Assembly: GCA_919902925.1 (NCBI GenBank)
Contig: CAKKRZ010000052.1
Location: forward strand, 1-37,586
Source of the DNA: Acidiferrobacterales bacterium
Lineage (GTDB): Bacteria > Pseudomonadota > Gammaproteobacteria > Acidiferrobacterales > Sulfurifustaceae
Direction: 5' to 3'
DNA length: 37,586 nt
The notes below the pieces were generated by a model that worked only from the letters and a program-made list of their open reading frames with translations, ran no database searches and had not been told where the DNA came from. Below, in pieces: positions 30,926-37,464 of this stretch. How positions within the stretch are numbered: the stretch's first letter is position 1; every line of letters starts with the position of its first letter. The position numbers and the translations under genes are program-made.

Positions 30926-30937
30926 ATTACTTAAGGC

Positions 30938-31049
30938 AGGACGAGCGAACGTAGTGAGCAGGGCTTTGCATCCTAATGACGAGACGAATGAGCGCAAGCG
31001 AATAGGGCTTTGCATCTTATGACAGGACGAACGAAGTAGGGCTTCTAAT
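30938..31049 (+). repeat. About 2.5 tandem units in the lexA leader
   Basis: Three degenerate units share an ACGA(G/A)(C/A)GAA(C/T) start and an AGGGCTTTGCATC(C/T)TAATGAC core. Cores lie at 30960-30980, 31004-31023 and (broken) 31038-31049, so the spacing is 44 then 34 bases. The lexA start codon TTG lies at the edge of the last, decayed unit. The region is transcribed if the promoter at 30878 is used. Confidence 0.7.
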
Positions 31050-31655
31050 TTGCAGACCGACCGCCACCGCGAGGTTTACGATTTTCTGGGCGCCTACATC
31101 GCGCGCCACGGCCACGCGCCCAAGCTGCGCGAGATCGCCGATCACCTCGGCATCCGTTCGCGCGGCGTGGTGCACCGCTATCTCAGCGCGCTGCGCGACG
31201 AGGGGCTGATCGCCGTCGAGCCGTTCGTGTCGCGGGGAGTTCGTCTCCGGGGTCGCGGGCGCGCCGCGGCGAAGACGGCCACGCTGCCGCTACTCGGCCG
31301 CATCGCCGCCGGTCAGCCGATCGAGGCCATCCCCGGCGAGGACGAGATCGACCTGTCGGAATTTTTTGTTAACGCCAACCGCTTCGTGCTGCGCGTGCAG
31401 GGCGACTCCATGATCGAAGACGGCATCCTCGATGGCGACATGGTGGTGGTGGAGAAGCGCGACACCGCCGACAACGGCGAGATCGTGGTGGCGCTGATCG
31501 ACGGGCAGGAGGCGACGCTGAAACGGTTGCAGAAAAACCGTGACGACTCGGTCACGCTCAAGCCGGCCAACGCGCGACTGTCGCCGCTGCGACTGTCGGC
31601 GGCGCGGGTGCGGATTCAGGGCGTGGTCGTCGGGCAGTTTCGTTCGTATCGGTGA
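31050..31655 (+). CDS. lexA: LexA repressor
   Basis: A 201-residue protein. The N-terminal winged helix-turn-helix is REIADHLGIRSRGVVHRYLSALRDEGLI (key words LREIADHLGI and GVVHRYLSAL). Cleavage site Ala-Gly is in LGRIAAGQP (about 85-93). Catalytic Ser lies in VQGDSMIEDGI (about 119) and Lys in EATLKRLQK (about 156). Standard SOS repressor: it self-cleaves when RecA filaments form. The recognition helix, with G-x-HR-x-x-AL, is closer to alphaproteobacterial LexA (SKSGIHRLITAL) than to E. coli (RSPNAAEEHLKAL), consistent with the GAAC-N7-GAAC operator upstream. TTG is the only possible start between the upstream in-frame stop (31020-31022) and the domain; AGGG lies eight bases before it. Followed after six bases by dinB. 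Confidence 0.95.
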   Translation: MQTDRHREVYDFLGAYIARHGHAPKLREIADHLGIRSRGVVHRYLSALRDEGLIAVEPFVSRGVRLRGRGRAAAKTATLPLLGRIAAGQPIEAIPGEDEIDLSEFFVNANRFVLRVQGDSMIEDGILDGDMVVVEKRDTADNGEIVVALIDGQEATLKRLQKNRDDSVTLKPANARLSPLRLSAARVRIQGVVVGQFRSYR

Positions 31656-31661
31656 TCGGTC

Positions 31662-32924
31662 GTGAGCGAGGAACAAACCTGCTACTGGCCGCGCGCCATC
31701 CTGCACATCGACATGAACGCGTTCTTTGCCTCGGTCGAGCAGCGCGATTTTCCTGAATTGCGCGGTCGGCCGATCGGCGTGACCAACGGCGAGGTCGGCA
31801 GCACGCTCATCACCTGTTCGTACGAGGCGCGCGCCCACGGCGTCAAGACCGGCATGCGCCTGCCGGAGGCGCGTTCACTGTGTCCCAAGATCATCCAGCG
31901 TCCGGCGCGACCGAAGGTTTACGCGCAGGTGTCGACGCGCATCATGCACGCGCTGGCCGAGCTCAGCCCCGACATCGAGGTATTCAGCGTCGACGAGGCC
32001 TTCGTCGACGTTACCCATTGCCAACGCCTGCACGGCAGCCCCGAGCACATGGCGGCGATGGCGCGCGACATCATCCACCGGGCCTCCGACGGCCTGCCGT
32101 GCTCGATCGGCGTGGCCGGCACGCGCTTGACCGCCAAGATCGCTTCCGACATGCAGAAGCCGAACGGCATCGTGATCATCCCGCCGTGGGAGGCGCGCGA
32201 GCGCCTGCGCGATGTGCCCATGGAAAAGCTGTGCGGCATCGGCCCGCGCGTGGCCGAGTATCTGCGCCTGTACGGCGCGCGCACCTGCGGCGACGTGGCG
32301 GCGCTGCCGCTCACCATCCTCGAACGCCGTTTCGGCGTGACCGGCAAGCGCCTGTGGCTGGCCAGCCAGGGGCTCGATTCCGACCCGGTGATCAATGACG
32401 TCGCGCCGCCGCAAAGCGTCGGCCACGGCAAGGTGGTGCCGCCACGCACCACCAGCCGGCGGGTGATCGAGACCTACCTGCGTCACATGTGCGAGAAGGT
32501 GGCGACGCGTCTGCGCCGTTATGGTTTCCAGGCCGGGCGGCTGTTCATCGGCCTGCGCTACGCCGAGTCCGGCGAGGGCGCGGCCGCCGAATACGAAATT
32601 GCCTACGGCGCACCGAACGGAAAAAAGTTTTTTGAACTGGCCCGTGCCCTGATGAAGGCACAGTGGCACGGTCAGGCGGTGACGCAGGTGCAGGTCACCG
32701 CCACCCGCCTGAAAAGCACCAGCGGGCAGATGGAGCTGTTCGCGCCGGCGGACGCGCGCCAGCTTAACCGCTTTGCCGCGGTCGACGGCGTCAATGAAAA
32801 ATACGGTGAGTTCACGGTCGCACCGGCGACGCTGCTGGAGCGCTCCTCCATGCCGAACGTCATCGCCCCGGCCTGGCGCCCGGACGGCCATCGCCAGCAT
32901 ATCCCGGACAGCGATAAATCCTGA
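31662..32924 (+). CDS. dinB: Y-family DNA polymerase (DinB/Pol IV type)
   Basis: A 420-residue translesion polymerase. ILHIDMNAFFASVEQRD carries the first catalytic Asp (17) and steric gate Phe. SVDEAFVDVT holds Asp111 and Glu112, so the active site is intact and this is not an ImuB-type pseudo-polymerase. MEKLCGIGPRVAEYLRLYGART is the helix-hairpin-helix thumb. The little-finger domain follows, and QMELF at about 366 is a sliding-clamp-binding motif. GTG start 31662 is six bases after lexA, forming a LexA-controlled error-prone repair operon. Length is longer than E. coli Pol IV (351) because of a C-terminal tail. Confidence 0.94.
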   Translation: MSEEQTCYWPRAILHIDMNAFFASVEQRDFPELRGRPIGVTNGEVGSTLITCSYEARAHGVKTGMRLPEARSLCPKIIQRPARPKVYAQVSTRIMHALAELSPDIEVFSVDEAFVDVTHCQRLHGSPEHMAAMARDIIHRASDGLPCSIGVAGTRLTAKIASDMQKPNGIVIIPPWEARERLRDVPMEKLCGIGPRVAEYLRLYGARTCGDVAALPLTILERRFGVTGKRLWLASQGLDSDPVINDVAPPQSVGHGKVVPPRTTSRRVIETYLRHMCEKVATRLRRYGFQAGRLFIGLRYAESGEGAAAEYEIAYGAPNGKKFFELARALMKAQWHGQAVTQVQVTATRLKSTSGQMELFAPADARQLNRFAAVDGVNEKYGEFTVAPATLLERSSMPNVIAPAWRPDGHRQHIPDSDKS

Positions 32925-32934
32925 GCAGTCGTGG

Positions 32935-35634
32935 TCAGCGGTTGGCGGCGGTGCCCGCTTCCAGTGCGCGCAGTTTCTCGCGCACCTGGGCCGCGCCCTT
33001 GGCCGGCGGCTTCAGAGAAAGATATTTGCGGTAGGCGACGCGTGCCTCGGCCGGCTGATTGAGCGCGATGTAAACGTCGCCGAGGTTGAGGTAGGCGACC
33101 GTGCGCCGGGGTTCAATCACCAGCGTCTTTTGCAGCCACTGCAGAGCTTCCGCATGGCGTTCGAGCTTGTACAGCACGAAGCCGGCGTTGTTGGTCGCCT
33201 GCGGATTGGCGGGATCGAGCCGGGCGGCAGTCAGGAAGGCATTCAGGGCCTCGGTATATTTCTGTTCCTTGTAGAGCAACAGACCCTGGTTGATGTGGTG
33301 GCGGGCCGCTTCGACGGGGTCATTGCTCGGGCCAGAGGGAGCGGGGACGTTCTGCGGCTGGGTGCGCAGGGCCTGCACGGCCGCCAGTTCCTGTTCGAGT
33401 CGCTGATTGCGGTGGCGTTTGGTTTCGATCTCCTGGCGCAGCGTTTCGATGCGCTTGGTCAGTTGCAGCGCCTGGTTGTCGAGTTGCGCCGACTGGCTGC
33501 TAAGGTCTTCCGTTTCGTGACGGAGCTCGAAGACGAATTCACCGCCCTGGCTGCCGGGCATGTTGCCGAAGGCCGGTGTTTGCAGCGACAACGAGGACAC
33601 GACCGGAGCAGTGTAGGCCGCCAGCTCCGAGGCGGTGATGATGCCATCGCCGTTCAGGTCGCCCTTGCCGTCGAGTCCCTGCAATAGCGTCCAGGTGAAC
33701 ACCGAATGGCCGTTGGGTCCGCTGTCGGCGACCTGTTGGTCGGCGCCGCCGGCGGTGAACATCTGCCGCGCCGGCCGGCGCACAATTTCGCGCAGGTATT
33801 CGCGCGAGCCGCCGCTGGCGCCGCTGCGGGTCAGGGCCAGACCGCTGTAGCAGGAGTCCATGACGAACAACAAGTGCTTGGCGGGGATGGCCTCGGCGAT
33901 GTCATTGAAGTTGGTCATCGAGATCGACTGGCCGAAATAGTTATCCTGCCGGACATCGACCGGGATGATATAGCCCAGCTCGCGCCCCGACGACAGCTTG
34001 CGCGTGGCGCCGTGGCCGGCGTAGAAAACGAACACCCGATCGTCGCGATTGACGAGATCGGCGTTGGCGAGCTTGTCGGCGAGCAACGCCAGGATCGCGC
34101 CGCGCGTCGCCTGCTCGTTGTAGAGGGTGAAAATGTTCTCCGGTTTGAACCGGTACTTGGTGATCAACATCTCGCGCACTGCCTTGGCATCGTTGACGGC
34201 GTAGCGCAGTTTCGGCCAGTGTTGATACTGGTCGATGCCGATTATTACGGCCCAACTGTCGCGATAGAGCGTCGAGGGCGCCGGCTCAACGACCGGCGCC
34301 GGGCCGCCGGCCACGGCAAAGGATTTGCCGTTCCAGGTGGCGAAGCGGTAACCCTCGGCCTTGAGTTTTTCGAGCAACAGCGGCAGGGCGCGTACTGTCT
34401 GGGCGTGGATGTCGTGAAACAGGATGATGCCGCGTTTCTCCGCGGCTACCAGTCCGAGCACGCGATTGGTGATGGACAACGGGACCGGATCGGCCCAGTC
34501 GAGCGAATCGATGTTCCACATCACGCTGCGCAATTTGTTGTCCCGGATCTGGCCGAGCACGGTTTCGTTGCGGGCCCCGTAGGGCGGGCGGAACAGCTCT
34601 GGTTCGGTATTCGTGATCAACTTAAGCAGACGGTTGGTGGTGGTAACCTCGCCGGTGAGCTTGTCGTTCTCCAGCTTCGGCATGACCAGGTGGGAATAGC
34701 TGTGATTCGCCAGCAGGTGACCGCTCTTGAGCAGGCGCCGGTTCAGCGTCGCCGGCTGGTGATACAGGACGACTTCCTTGTTGTGTATCTTGCCAAGATT
34801 GCGGCCCACCTGGAAAAAGACAGCGGGCACCTTGTGCTTGTCGAGGATCTCGAGAATTTTCTCCGTGTGCCGCCCGTGCGGGCCGTCGTCGAAGGTCAGG
34901 ACGATGGTCTTGGGCGGCAGTTCACGACCGTTGATCTCGGGCAGGGTCGCTGCGGCCGAGCCGCGGGCCGACGGCAGCAGCCGGTTGTCGGGATCGACTT
35001 CTTCCAGGATGCGTTCGCGGGTGTAGAGCGTCTTCAGGTAGCGTTGGTAGTCGTCCCAGGCCTCGCGTTGCAGCGCCATGCCGCGGGTGGCGAGCTGGCC
35101 GAAAATCTTCTCCACCTCTTTTTCATATCGCGCCTGAATCGTTTCCAGTGCCCGGCGATCATCGTCGATGCGCCCGGCGATCCGGACGATCTCGGGCGGC
35201 GGTTGGCGCAGGCTGGCCAGAGCCTCGGCGAGTTCGTCGAGCAACTCGCGGAAGGCTAGTTTGTCGGCGTCGCGAAGTTCCGGGTTGCGCTCCAGCCAGT
35301 CCAGGAATCGGTCTACGCTGGCGGGTGCCCGGCCGGCGCGCGCGGCTTGGCGGACATCGGCCACCAGCAGCTCGCGCAGTTTTTCCAGGCGATCGATGTT
35401 GCGGTGATACAGGATCTTGCCGACCACCGCGGCCCGTTCCTGCTCCGCCACCTCGCCGTCGGCCAGCAACACAATGATCTGGCGATAGGCGGCGAGGATG
35501 TCACGCGACTGGCTTTCGACGGCCGGATCGCCGGGTCGGACGGGAACATGGCCGCGCGTGTTGCCCAGACCCCAGGCGGAGACGGACCACGCCAGCAGCA
35601 CGCAGAACAGTGGCAACAGGCGCGGACGCATCAT
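32935..35634 (-). CDS. Exported polysaccharide deacetylase - caspase-like peptidase - TPR fusion
   Basis: An 899-residue protein. Order: signal peptide (1-22); helical region with coiled-coil character (40-215); NodB deacetylase domain (about 240-435) with TFDDGP (247-252), HSYSH (311-315), RPPYG (349-353) and LFHDIH (405-410), i.e. the catalytic Asp, two metal His, Arg/Pro motif and final His; linker; peptidase C14 caspase-like domain (about 458-705) with VFYAGHG (His541) and FVMDSCYSG (Cys595), the complete catalytic dyad, plus an EF-hand-like DLNGDGIITASEL (659-671); coiled coil (710-757); three TPR-like repeats (about 775-870). NodB domains remove N- or O-acetyl groups from peptidoglycan or other glycans; caspase homologues cut after Arg/Lys or Asp. 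Location is periplasmic or cell-surface. Start is one of two adjacent ATGs. The fusion is unusual; function unknown. Confidence 0.93.
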   Translation of the reverse strand: MMRPRLLPLFCVLLAWSVSAWGLGNTRGHVPVRPGDPAVESQSRDILAAYRQIIVLLADGEVAEQERAAVVGKILYHRNIDRLEKLRELLVADVRQAARAGRAPASVDRFLDWLERNPELRDADKLAFRELLDELAEALASLRQPPPEIVRIAGRIDDDRRALETIQARYEKEVEKIFGQLATRGMALQREAWDDYQRYLKTLYTRERILEEVDPDNRLLPSARGSAAATLPEINGRELPPKTIVLTFDDGPHGRHTEKILEILDKHKVPAVFFQVGRNLGKIHNKEVVLYHQPATLNRRLLKSGHLLANHSYSHLVMPKLENDKLTGEVTTTNRLLKLITNTEPELFRPPYGARNETVLGQIRDNKLRSVMWNIDSLDWADPVPLSITNRVLGLVAAEKRGIILFHDIHAQTVRALPLLLEKLKAEGYRFATWNGKSFAVAGGPAPVVEPAPSTLYRDSWAVIIGIDQYQHWPKLRYAVNDAKAVREMLITKYRFKPENIFTLYNEQATRGAILALLADKLANADLVNRDDRVFVFYAGHGATRKLSSGRELGYIIPVDVRQDNYFGQSISMTNFNDIAEAIPAKHLLFVMDSCYSGLALTRSGASGGSREYLREIVRRPARQMFTAGGADQQVADSGPNGHSVFTWTLLQGLDGKGDLNGDGIITASELAAYTAPVVSSLSLQTPAFGNMPGSQGGEFVFELRHETEDLSSQSAQLDNQALQLTKRIETLRQEIETKRHRNQRLEQELAAVQALRTQPQNVPAPSGPSNDPVEAARHHINQGLLLYKEQKYTEALNAFLTAARLDPANPQATNNAGFVLYKLERHAEALQWLQKTLVIEPRRTVAYLNLGDVYIALNQPAEARVAYRKYLSLKPPAKGAAQVREKLRALEAGTAANR

Positions 35635-35705
35635 TCGCTCAGGTTTGCCATGACGAGATTGTCAGGTTAGGGCCGACGGGCGACCCATGTAGGTCGCTGA
35701 CCGGT

Positions 35706-35781
35706 CGGGCACACATGTTTCAACTATAACCCAGTGATGCACAATGTGCCCGCCGGGTCAGCACGGGGGTCGACGCCCCCG
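35706..35781. promoter_or_regulatory. Inverted repeat and GC hairpin in divergent intergenic region
   Basis: CGGGCACA (35706-35713) and TGTGCCCG (35745-35752) form an 8-base inverted repeat with a 31-base gap, spanning the likely promoter area between the deacetylase-caspase gene and the barrel gene. A compact hairpin CGGGGG-TCGACG-CCCCCG follows at 35764-35781, in the probable leader of the + gene. No protein binder can be named; the arrangement may be a regulator site pair or chance. Confidence 0.35.
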
Positions 35782-35813
35782 GCCTTACCCCCAAACGACA
35801 GGGAGAATCAAGA

Positions 35814-36473
35814 ATGAACAGGACAGGTTCCATGCTGTTGTGGTCGTTGGTTATCGTCTGTCTGACCGGCGGGTTGCCGGCCCAGGCGGACATCGGCATC
35901 AATCCGCGAGCGAGCACACTCGGTTACGGCGCCCAGCTTACCTGGGGCATCAATGACAGCGTCAGTGTCGGCGTCGAGGCGAACCGGTTCGACAAGCGCA
36001 TCAATGACACGTACGGCGGGATCAACTACCGCTACGAGATCGACAGCTCCTCGTTCGCCGTTCTGGGGCATTGGTATCCGGCGGGTCGCGGCGGGGTCTT
36101 CCGGCTGACGGCGGGCCTGTACCGCAATGACAGCCAGGTGAGCGGGACTGCCGGCCTCATTTCGGGATCCTCTTACACTATCGGCAACACGAGTTACACG
36201 GCCGCGAATATTGGCAGCCTGACCGGTACGGCGACTTTCGACAAGAACGCGCCATACCTGGGTATCGGCTGGGGCGGCCGGCCGGGCGAGCGTTTTGGAT
36301 TTACCTTCGATCTCGGCGCCATGTACGTCGGCGCTCCGAAGGTGGGCCTGAGCACCACCGGCGGCGTGGTGTCTGCCGCCGATCTCGAAACCGAGCGTCA
36401 GCAGGTCGAGAACGATTTCCGTAACGTGAAGTGGTTCCCGCTCATCGCGCTCGGGGTCTACGTGCGGTTCTAG
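35814..36473 (+). CDS. Outer-membrane beta-barrel-like protein
   Basis: A 219-residue protein with signal peptide (1-25, ending AQA-D). The mature chain alternates short amphipathic strands and turns (LGYGAQLTWGIND, VSVGVEANRFDK, FAVLGHWYPAGRG, VFRLTAGLYRND, PYLGIGWGGRPG, FGFTFDLGAMYVG) and ends VYVRF. The terminal aromatic Phe preceded by alternating hydrophobics is the BAM-recognition signature of outer-membrane barrels; about eight strands fit the length. It resembles OmpW/OmpA-type small barrels without a family I can name. A GGGAGAA ribosome site precedes the ATG. Divergent from the deacetylase-caspase gene, so the two may share regulation. Confidence 0.8.
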   Translation: MNRTGSMLLWSLVIVCLTGGLPAQADIGINPRASTLGYGAQLTWGINDSVSVGVEANRFDKRINDTYGGINYRYEIDSSSFAVLGHWYPAGRGGVFRLTAGLYRNDSQVSGTAGLISGSSYTIGNTSYTAANIGSLTGTATFDKNAPYLGIGWGGRPGERFGFTFDLGAMYVGAPKVGLSTTGGVVSAADLETERQQVENDFRNVKWFPLIALGVYVRF

Positions 36474-36570
36474 TTGGCGCGGACAGCCGGGTCGCTGGCC
36501 ACGGGCGATGGTGTGGATGGGTGTTGCCTGACATTGTCCGGCGGGTGCGATCCTGTCAGGCTGTCGTTCC

Positions 36571-37464
36571 ATGCCAATGGACAATCTGCGCCGCGGCGCT
36601 ATCTATATGGTCATCTCCGCCCTGCTGTTTGCCGGCATGGGCGCGCTGGTGAAACTGGTTTCCGCCTCCCTGCCGAATGAGATGGTGGTGTTCTTCCGCA
36701 GCGCCATGGGGCTGGTGGTGCTGCTGCCGTGGTTGTGGCACGGAGGGTTAGCCGGTATTCGCACCACCGCGCTGACTCAGCATCTCGCGCGCAGCGCCGC
36801 CGGACTCGGGGCGATGTATTGCTTCTTTTATGCTCTCGCCCATCTGTCGCTGGCCGAAGCGACGCTGCTGAATTATTCGACGCCGTTGTTTGTCCCCTTT
36901 ATCGCCGCCTGGTGGCTGGGCGAGCGCGTCCCGGCGGGACTCCGGCCGGTGTTGCTCATGGGCATGCTGGGTGTCGTGCTGATCCTCAAACCGGGGCTGG
37001 CGTTGTTCACGCCGGCGGCGCTGGTGGGGTTAGCCTCCGGCGTCCTGGCCGCGTTTGCCATGACCGGCATCCGCCGGCTGTCGAAGACCGAGCCGGTGAC
37101 ACGCATCGTTTTCTATTTCACCGTCTTCAGCACGCTGGTGTCGGCCGTCCCTTTGATCTGGCGCTGGCAGACGCCCGAGCCGGAATTGTGGGGCGCATTG
37201 ATCGCCATCGGAATTCTGGCAACGCTGGCGCAACTGTTCCTGACCCGCGCCTATCGTTCCGCACCCGCCGCCCAAGTCGGGCCATTCACGTACCTCACCG
37301 TGGTGTTTGCCGCGAGTGTCGGCTGGATGTTCTGGGATGAAGTGCCGGATGGGCTGTCGCTGCTGGGTGCGCTGCTGGTGGTGGCCGGCGGGGTCTTTAC
37401 CATCCGTCGGGCCGGACGTTACGCCCCGACCACCGACGTGCCCGCCCCAAAACCGGCTCCGTAG
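36571..37464 (+). CDS. DMT-superfamily (EamA) transporter
   Basis: A 297-residue inner-membrane protein with ten hydrophobic helices in two EamA repeats (about 8-140 and 150-285). First-repeat signatures are LLFAGMGALVKLVS, FFRSAMGLVVLLPW and LSLAEATLLNYSTPLFVPFIAAWWLGERV; second-repeat signatures are AFAMTGIRRLSKTEP, LATLAQLFLTRAYRSAPAAQVGPFTYL (read as LFLTRAYRSAPAAQVGPF) and FWDEVPDGLSLLGALLVVAGG. It probably exports a small metabolite such as an amino acid or purine; the substrate cannot be told. Starts ATG 36571 or 36577. Confidence 0.9.
   Translation: MPMDNLRRGAIYMVISALLFAGMGALVKLVSASLPNEMVVFFRSAMGLVVLLPWLWHGGLAGIRTTALTQHLARSAAGLGAMYCFFYALAHLSLAEATLLNYSTPLFVPFIAAWWLGERVPAGLRPVLLMGMLGVVLILKPGLALFTPAALVGLASGVLAAFAMTGIRRLSKTEPVTRIVFYFTVFSTLVSAVPLIWRWQTPEPELWGALIAIGILATLAQLFLTRAYRSAPAAQVGPFTYLTVVFAASVGWMFWDEVPDGLSLLGALLVVAGGVFTIRRAGRYAPTTDVPAPKPAP

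Follow-up and report, generated by a model that had tools for sequence, protein, structure and literature searches.

A single gene on the minus strand of the window (the whole stretch of DNA analysed, 37,586 nucleotides) encodes a protein of 899 amino acids and 100.6 kDa, from an ORF that runs exactly from 32935 to 35634, starts with ATG and has no internal stops. From the N- to the C-terminus, the protein comprises a signal sequence, a helical region, a PgdA-like NodB (CE4) domain, a C14 caspase domain that carries a single calcium-type loop, a coiled coil, and TPRs (Table 1). An earlier reading of the sequence alone (the sequence-only reading) had described the same uninterrupted frame, leaving out its strand, and had placed the motifs TFDDGP, HSYSH, and RPPYG and the residues His541 and Cys595 where we find them; the domains that it named are recovered by Pfam as PF01522, PF00656, and TPR families. 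On one flank of the gene, convergent with it, the plus strand at 31050-32924 carries lexA and, a few bases behind it, a gene for a Y-family DNA polymerase; the opposite flank encodes an EamA transporter and a barrel protein weakly similar to CarO. Just upstream of lexA, at 30935-31045, lie imperfect direct repeats (AGGGCTTTGCATC with flanks), the core of which occurs twice in the whole genome, both times there.

Table 1. Features of the gene and its product, with the observations on which each assignment is based.
Feature	Position in the window	Strand	Basis
Whole gene, NodB–caspase–TPR protein (Xanthomonas-type metacaspase), 899 aa	32935..35634	-	ORF and translation; 29 same-architecture relatives
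Residues 1-24, predicted export signal, lipobox Cys absent	35563..35634	-	Sequence MMRPRLLPLFCVLLAWSVSAWGLG; N-termini of relatives
Residues 45-230, conserved helical region	34945..35502	-	Mean 35% identity to relatives; helical low-confidence model; similar region in L054 and L055
Residues 238-435, NodB/CE4 deacetylase, all five motifs	34330..34923	-	PF01522; invariant residues; model compared with SpPgdA
Residues 458-655, C14 caspase with the dyad H541/C595 and D593	33670..34263	-	PF00656; invariant dyad; structural match of the model to plant metacaspase 4 (Z 23.8)
Residues 656-705, C-terminal part of caspase fold, calcium-type loop DLNGDG (659-664)	33520..33669	-	Mean 73% identity; invariant residues
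Residues 706-778, coiled-coil helix and variable linker	33301..33519	-	Predicted helix 707-757; 19.5% mean identity
Residues 779-880, TPR repeats	32995..33300	-	PF07719, PF00515, PF13414; model resembles TPR structures

The hydrophobic N-terminus, as read from the sequence, agrees with the signal peptide proposed in the sequence-only reading, and it lacks the lipobox cysteine; in most relatives a lipobox follows the hydrophobic stretch, and some have a plain membrane anchor. The helical region that comes next matched no Pfam family and is common to the window protein and to caspase-less NodB paralogues. Within the NodB domain, PF01522 matches residues 238-369 (E 5.9e-29, 101 bits, cut-off 23.1), with TFDDGP at 247-252, HSYSH at 311-315, and RPPYG at 349-353. 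Conservation was assessed in an alignment of 30 sequences, the window protein and 29 relatives, with acidobacterial members lying outside this sample. D249, D250, H311, H315, R349, D376, D379, W380, and H407 are invariant, as is every NodB motif residue expected for metal binding or catalysis (30 of 30), and the NodB motifs of the sequence-only reading are all among them. Such CE4 motifs denote metal-dependent deacetylation, and the CE4 fold is common to chitin, xylan, and EPS deacetylases. Here, all five catalytic motifs and the fold are present: the NodB model, obtained by folding the N- and C-terminal halves of the protein separately with the window sequence and the related loci as the only input, is confident and matches Streptococcus pneumoniae PgdA (SpPgdA, 2c1g) with an rmsd of 1.5 A over 193 columns at 36% identity. 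PgdA-type structures are among the best matches of the domain, and the NCBIfam PgdA models match it with scores under their cut-offs. Because its predicted fold is closest to PgdA-type peptidoglycan deacetylases, the envelope location and wall-glycan processing that had been suggested for the protein appear plausible. All CE4 motifs are shared with these peptidoglycan GlcNAc deacetylases, but the window protein has a different N-terminal region and, in addition, a fused protease and TPRs.

The caspase domain matches PF00656 at residues 461-658 (E 8.3e-18, 65.3 bits, cut-off 21.4), spanning profile positions 3-195 of 233, and the model shows a full caspase fold to about residue 705. The motifs YAGHGA and DSCYSG contain His541 and Cys595, respectively; this full dyad, recognized already in the sequence-only reading, is invariant in all 30 sequences together with the S1-type aspartate D593. 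At the catalytic cysteine the window protein reads DSC(YSG), in contrast to DAC in all 29 other aligned members. The C-terminal half was modeled with a mean pLDDT of 85 and matches metacaspases and MALT1; against Arabidopsis metacaspase 4, Z is 23.8 and the rmsd 2.5 over 216 residues. The structure prediction thus contains the caspase fold whose absence would have spoken against the earlier proposal. Metacaspases and orthocaspases, including yeast Mca1, Arabidopsis metacaspases 4 and 9, and MaOC1, share with the window protein this fold, the His-Cys dyad, and an Asp two residues before the Cys, whereas the window protein is apparently exported, fused to a deacetylase, and equipped with a calcium-type loop in the C-terminal portion of this fold. 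In metacaspases, the Asp that precedes the catalytic Cys by two residues confers specificity for a basic P1 residue. Orthocaspases cut behind residues with a positive charge (PMC6426788).

What is the nature of the loop that had been called EF-hand-like? The loop DLNGDGIITASEL (659-671) is indeed present and nearly invariant in relatives, with D659, N661, D663, T667, and E670 unchanged throughout the alignment of 30, and the region around it (656-705) is the most conserved stretch of the protein. However, because no EF-hand Pfam family reached E 0.001 in the window protein, the term is reduced to a single DxNxDG loop. Since more distant C14 proteins carry such a calcium-type loop variably (present in L017 and L023, absent from L016 and L018), it is optional in bacterial C14 domains as a whole, whereas the family described here has it invariantly. 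Downstream, the proposed coiled coil corresponds in the model to one continuous long helix (residues 707-757), and the TPRs are supported both by several Pfam families at residues 780-876 (best E 1.8e-14, several models well above their cut-offs) and by the match of the model to TPR structures.

The architecture is sparsely distributed. A whole-genome search retrieved two same-architecture relatives besides the window among 369 sampled genomes of the class; in the family that is home to both (f19), 14 of 119 genomes have the architecture, with one match that stops at query residue 733, and a further family (f113) contributed 15 same-architecture matches and two NodB-only matches among 151 genomes. 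Within its own order, of which 57 genomes were searched, no protein other than the window protein matched at E 1e-30 or better. The helical region and NodB part, searched in 59 near genomes, returned single NodB-domain matches only, and a scan of genome contigs with the window protein as single query likewise returned single-domain relatives only. Identity between the window protein and any one of 21 aligned relatives is 42-47%, and the motifs, invariant across 30 proteins at about this distance, are therefore not a product of chance. Mean identity to the window protein falls from 73% in the loop region to 58% in the caspase, 51% in the NodB, 42% in the TPR, and 35% in the helical region, and to 20-28% in the linkers. 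In six pairs of closer relatives, dN/dS was 0.02-0.23 for the caspase, 0.04-0.28 for the NodB domain, and 0.17-0.49 for the coil. Both enzyme domains are under purifying selection, as residue conservation and dN/dS together indicate. A decayed or chimeric fusion was rejected because many independent genomes carry the identical architecture; with the Pfam matches, invariant residues, structure models, and dN/dS values, the earlier view that both enzymatic domains are intact is upheld, and the fusion is neither decayed nor fortuitous. Domain trees place both halves in the same broad groups, with the window protein and the relative from genome G594 on long branches.

This combination of NodB, C14, and TPR domains was named Xanthomonas-type metacaspase by Asplund-Samuelsson et al. 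in 2012, who described members in Xanthomonas, Xylella, Stenotrophomonas, and two Acidobacteria, with the dyad in all 17, a size of 97-100 kDa in Xanthomonas, and, in three gammaproteobacterial genera, an operon with the tRNA modification GTPase gene (mnmE/trmE) and yidC (PMC3501461). The window protein almost certainly belongs to this family: it has PF01522, C14, and one to three TPRs in this order in one chain, the conserved dyad in the form of H541 and C595, and full-length homology to proteins encoded beside mnmE and yidC (47-48% over residues 45-894 for L014, L015, and others), and its Pfam order and mass match the published ones. The window gene does not adjoin mnmE and yidC, a context that is not part of the protein definition. 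Relatives from f19 do sit between yidC-like and mnmE-like ORFs, and since this fits the published description they are probably Xanthomonadaceae. Thus, the window protein shares the domain order, the intact His-Cys dyad, and the size of about 100 kDa with the Xanthomonas-type metacaspases, but it has neither a lipobox nor the yidC/mnmE context and is 42-47% identical to the relatives sampled. The architecture has been known since 2012, and the window contains a new, rather divergent member. The sequence-only reading was accurate in seeing an intact, conserved, and probably exported fusion, but it overlooked this published architecture, and its proposed barrel partner did not hold.

Two f113 genomes encode proteins made of the helical region and NodB without caspase or TPR, L054 (519 aa; L054:1411-2970, minus strand) and L055 (448 aa; L055:1540-2886, minus strand). 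They resemble the window protein in their N-terminal helical region and NodB domain, with 46-49% identity in NodB, but have no caspase, calcium-type loop, or TPR. Their existence suggests that a deacetylase module was there first and that a caspase–TPR module was joined to it; proteins of the L054/L055 type may possibly represent the ancestral module of the fusion. In a genome of another class, the NodB and caspase–TPR parts occur in two ORFs (L038:1222-2547 and L039:54-1148, both on the minus strand) with a disrupted caspase start, owing either to breakage of the copy or to an error in sequencing. A mobile-element origin was dismissed, as plasmids and phages yielded single-domain matches only and no full-length relative. 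When viral sequences were scanned with the caspase alignment of the family, or with the caspase of the window protein by itself, there was no match. Two predicted viral contigs (L105 and L106) encode caspase-domain proteins 43% identical to the window caspase, with no NodB or TPR in the same frame.

Do the neighboring genes inform on function? For the divergent gene at 35814, which encodes the barrel protein, the sequence-only reading had suggested a possible partnership, which we discarded: near 18 homologs, the only window ORFs with matches were the gene itself and ORFs overlapping it, and no window neighbor has a relative there. In f113, hardly any neighbor is shared among relatives, and the mnmE/yidC context is absent there too. 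As none of these neighbors recurs near relatives, the window protein apparently functions without a constant partner among the genes around it. Regulation by the SOS response through lexA next door was likewise set aside, since CTGT-N8-ACAG, the sole motif scanned, has no match with one mismatch or fewer in the vicinity of the gene or of lexA, and its matches in the window are fewer than expected by chance. A promoter scan of 32800-36700 found none.

Based on these sequence comparisons and models, we propose the following mechanism, which we consider possible though a little short of probable: an envelope peptidoglycan deacetylase is coupled to a calcium-gated, Arg/Lys-specific orthocaspase, forming a stress-triggered switch of wall deacetylation. 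The protein would be exported to the envelope, where the helical region and NodB domain would act on an N-acetylated glycan, most likely peptidoglycan. The caspase part would cut after Arg or Lys, since D593, the invariant Asp at the second position ahead of Cys595, is the counterpart of the metacaspase S1 Asp. Upon envelope damage, for instance, calcium may bind the DxNxDG loop and turn the protease on, and the TPRs and coiled coil may serve in substrate recruitment or oligomerization. In the simplest form of coupling, the protein would cleave itself in the variable linkers (436-457 and 706-778) or at Arg603, which is invariant; the deacetylase would thereby be set free or inactivated, and wall deacetylation be switched under stress. 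Processing fits the published active species of 55 kDa as opposed to the predicted form of about 100 kDa, for which autoprocessing was proposed in 2012 (PMC3501461), but the activity in question is assayed on DEVD substrates, for which the predicted specificity does not account.

An executioner role in cell death, in which starvation or ROS stress would free the caspase part for protein degradation and the deacetylase would assist in loosening the wall, is unlikely in our estimation, even though it has the literature on its side. In X. campestris pv. glycines, a homolog has been tied to programmed cell death, and its product cross-reacts with caspase and PARP antibodies (PMC3501461), and caspase-3-like (DEVDase) activity increases in dying Xanthomonas (PMC4006831). 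This link is correlative, however, relying on antibody cross-reaction and DEVD substrates, and we found no gene knock-out in the literature searched. Furthermore, nearly all relatives examined have an N-terminal lipobox or membrane anchor, so cytoplasmic targets should be out of reach, and D593 predicts a basic P1 residue rather than Asp. The reported DEVDase would not fit the predicted Arg/Lys protease and may have another enzyme as its source. By analogy with other bacterial defense proteins that contain caspases, the protein might guard the envelope by sensing phage, predators, or contact attack and responding through its caspase as effector, but this seems highly improbable. The match of the caspase region to the PADLOC model PDLC02987 'caspase' (E 8.8e-16) is a generic one, and the patchy distribution, with a lone member in the order, has to be set against the predicted export of the protein, the lack of defense genes among the eight neighboring proteins scanned, and the fixed housekeeping site between yidC and mnmE in one family.

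It is also conceivable that the substrate is not the wall. Many CE4 enzymes target exported polysaccharides, and EPS export machines often contain TPRs; the NodB domain might then deacetylate an exported polymer like PgaB or IcaB, and the protease trim surface proteins, in the control of exopolysaccharide or biofilm. We regard this as distinctly unlikely, given that the PgaB model matched residues 235-292 only, with 26 bits against a cut-off of 322, in contrast to the PgdA-type structures, and that no polysaccharide synthesis or export genes recur beside the gene, its neighbors being unconserved in one family and yidC/mnmE in the other. Finally, the two enzymes could act independently of each other, merely tethered in one lipoprotein or periplasmic scaffold for separate wall and protein housekeeping. 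The caspase-less paralogs imply that the deacetylase can work alone, and the linkers between the domains are variable, but 30 proteins from several families preserve the order of the fusion, with the caspase part most constrained, which suggests a joint task and makes simple tethering quite improbable.

The specific form of the switch that we propose, in which a calcium-gated periplasmic caspase would control its own wall deacetylase by self-cleavage and so translate envelope damage into peptidoglycan modification instead of acting as a death protease, is doubtful as it stands. If true, it would constitute a one-protein switch from envelope damage to peptidoglycan modification that works outside the cytoplasm. 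The question bears on the physiological role of bacterial caspase homologs, since the Xanthomonas-type metacaspase family is one of those on which claims of programmed cell death in Xanthomonas rest. To this family the window contributes a member that is the only one found in its order and that has no lipobox, in contrast to most relatives. The predicted export, probable basic specificity, invariant calcium-type loop, and intact wall-type deacetylase point to a task in the envelope, as opposed to a cytoplasmic, caspase-3-like role in death.
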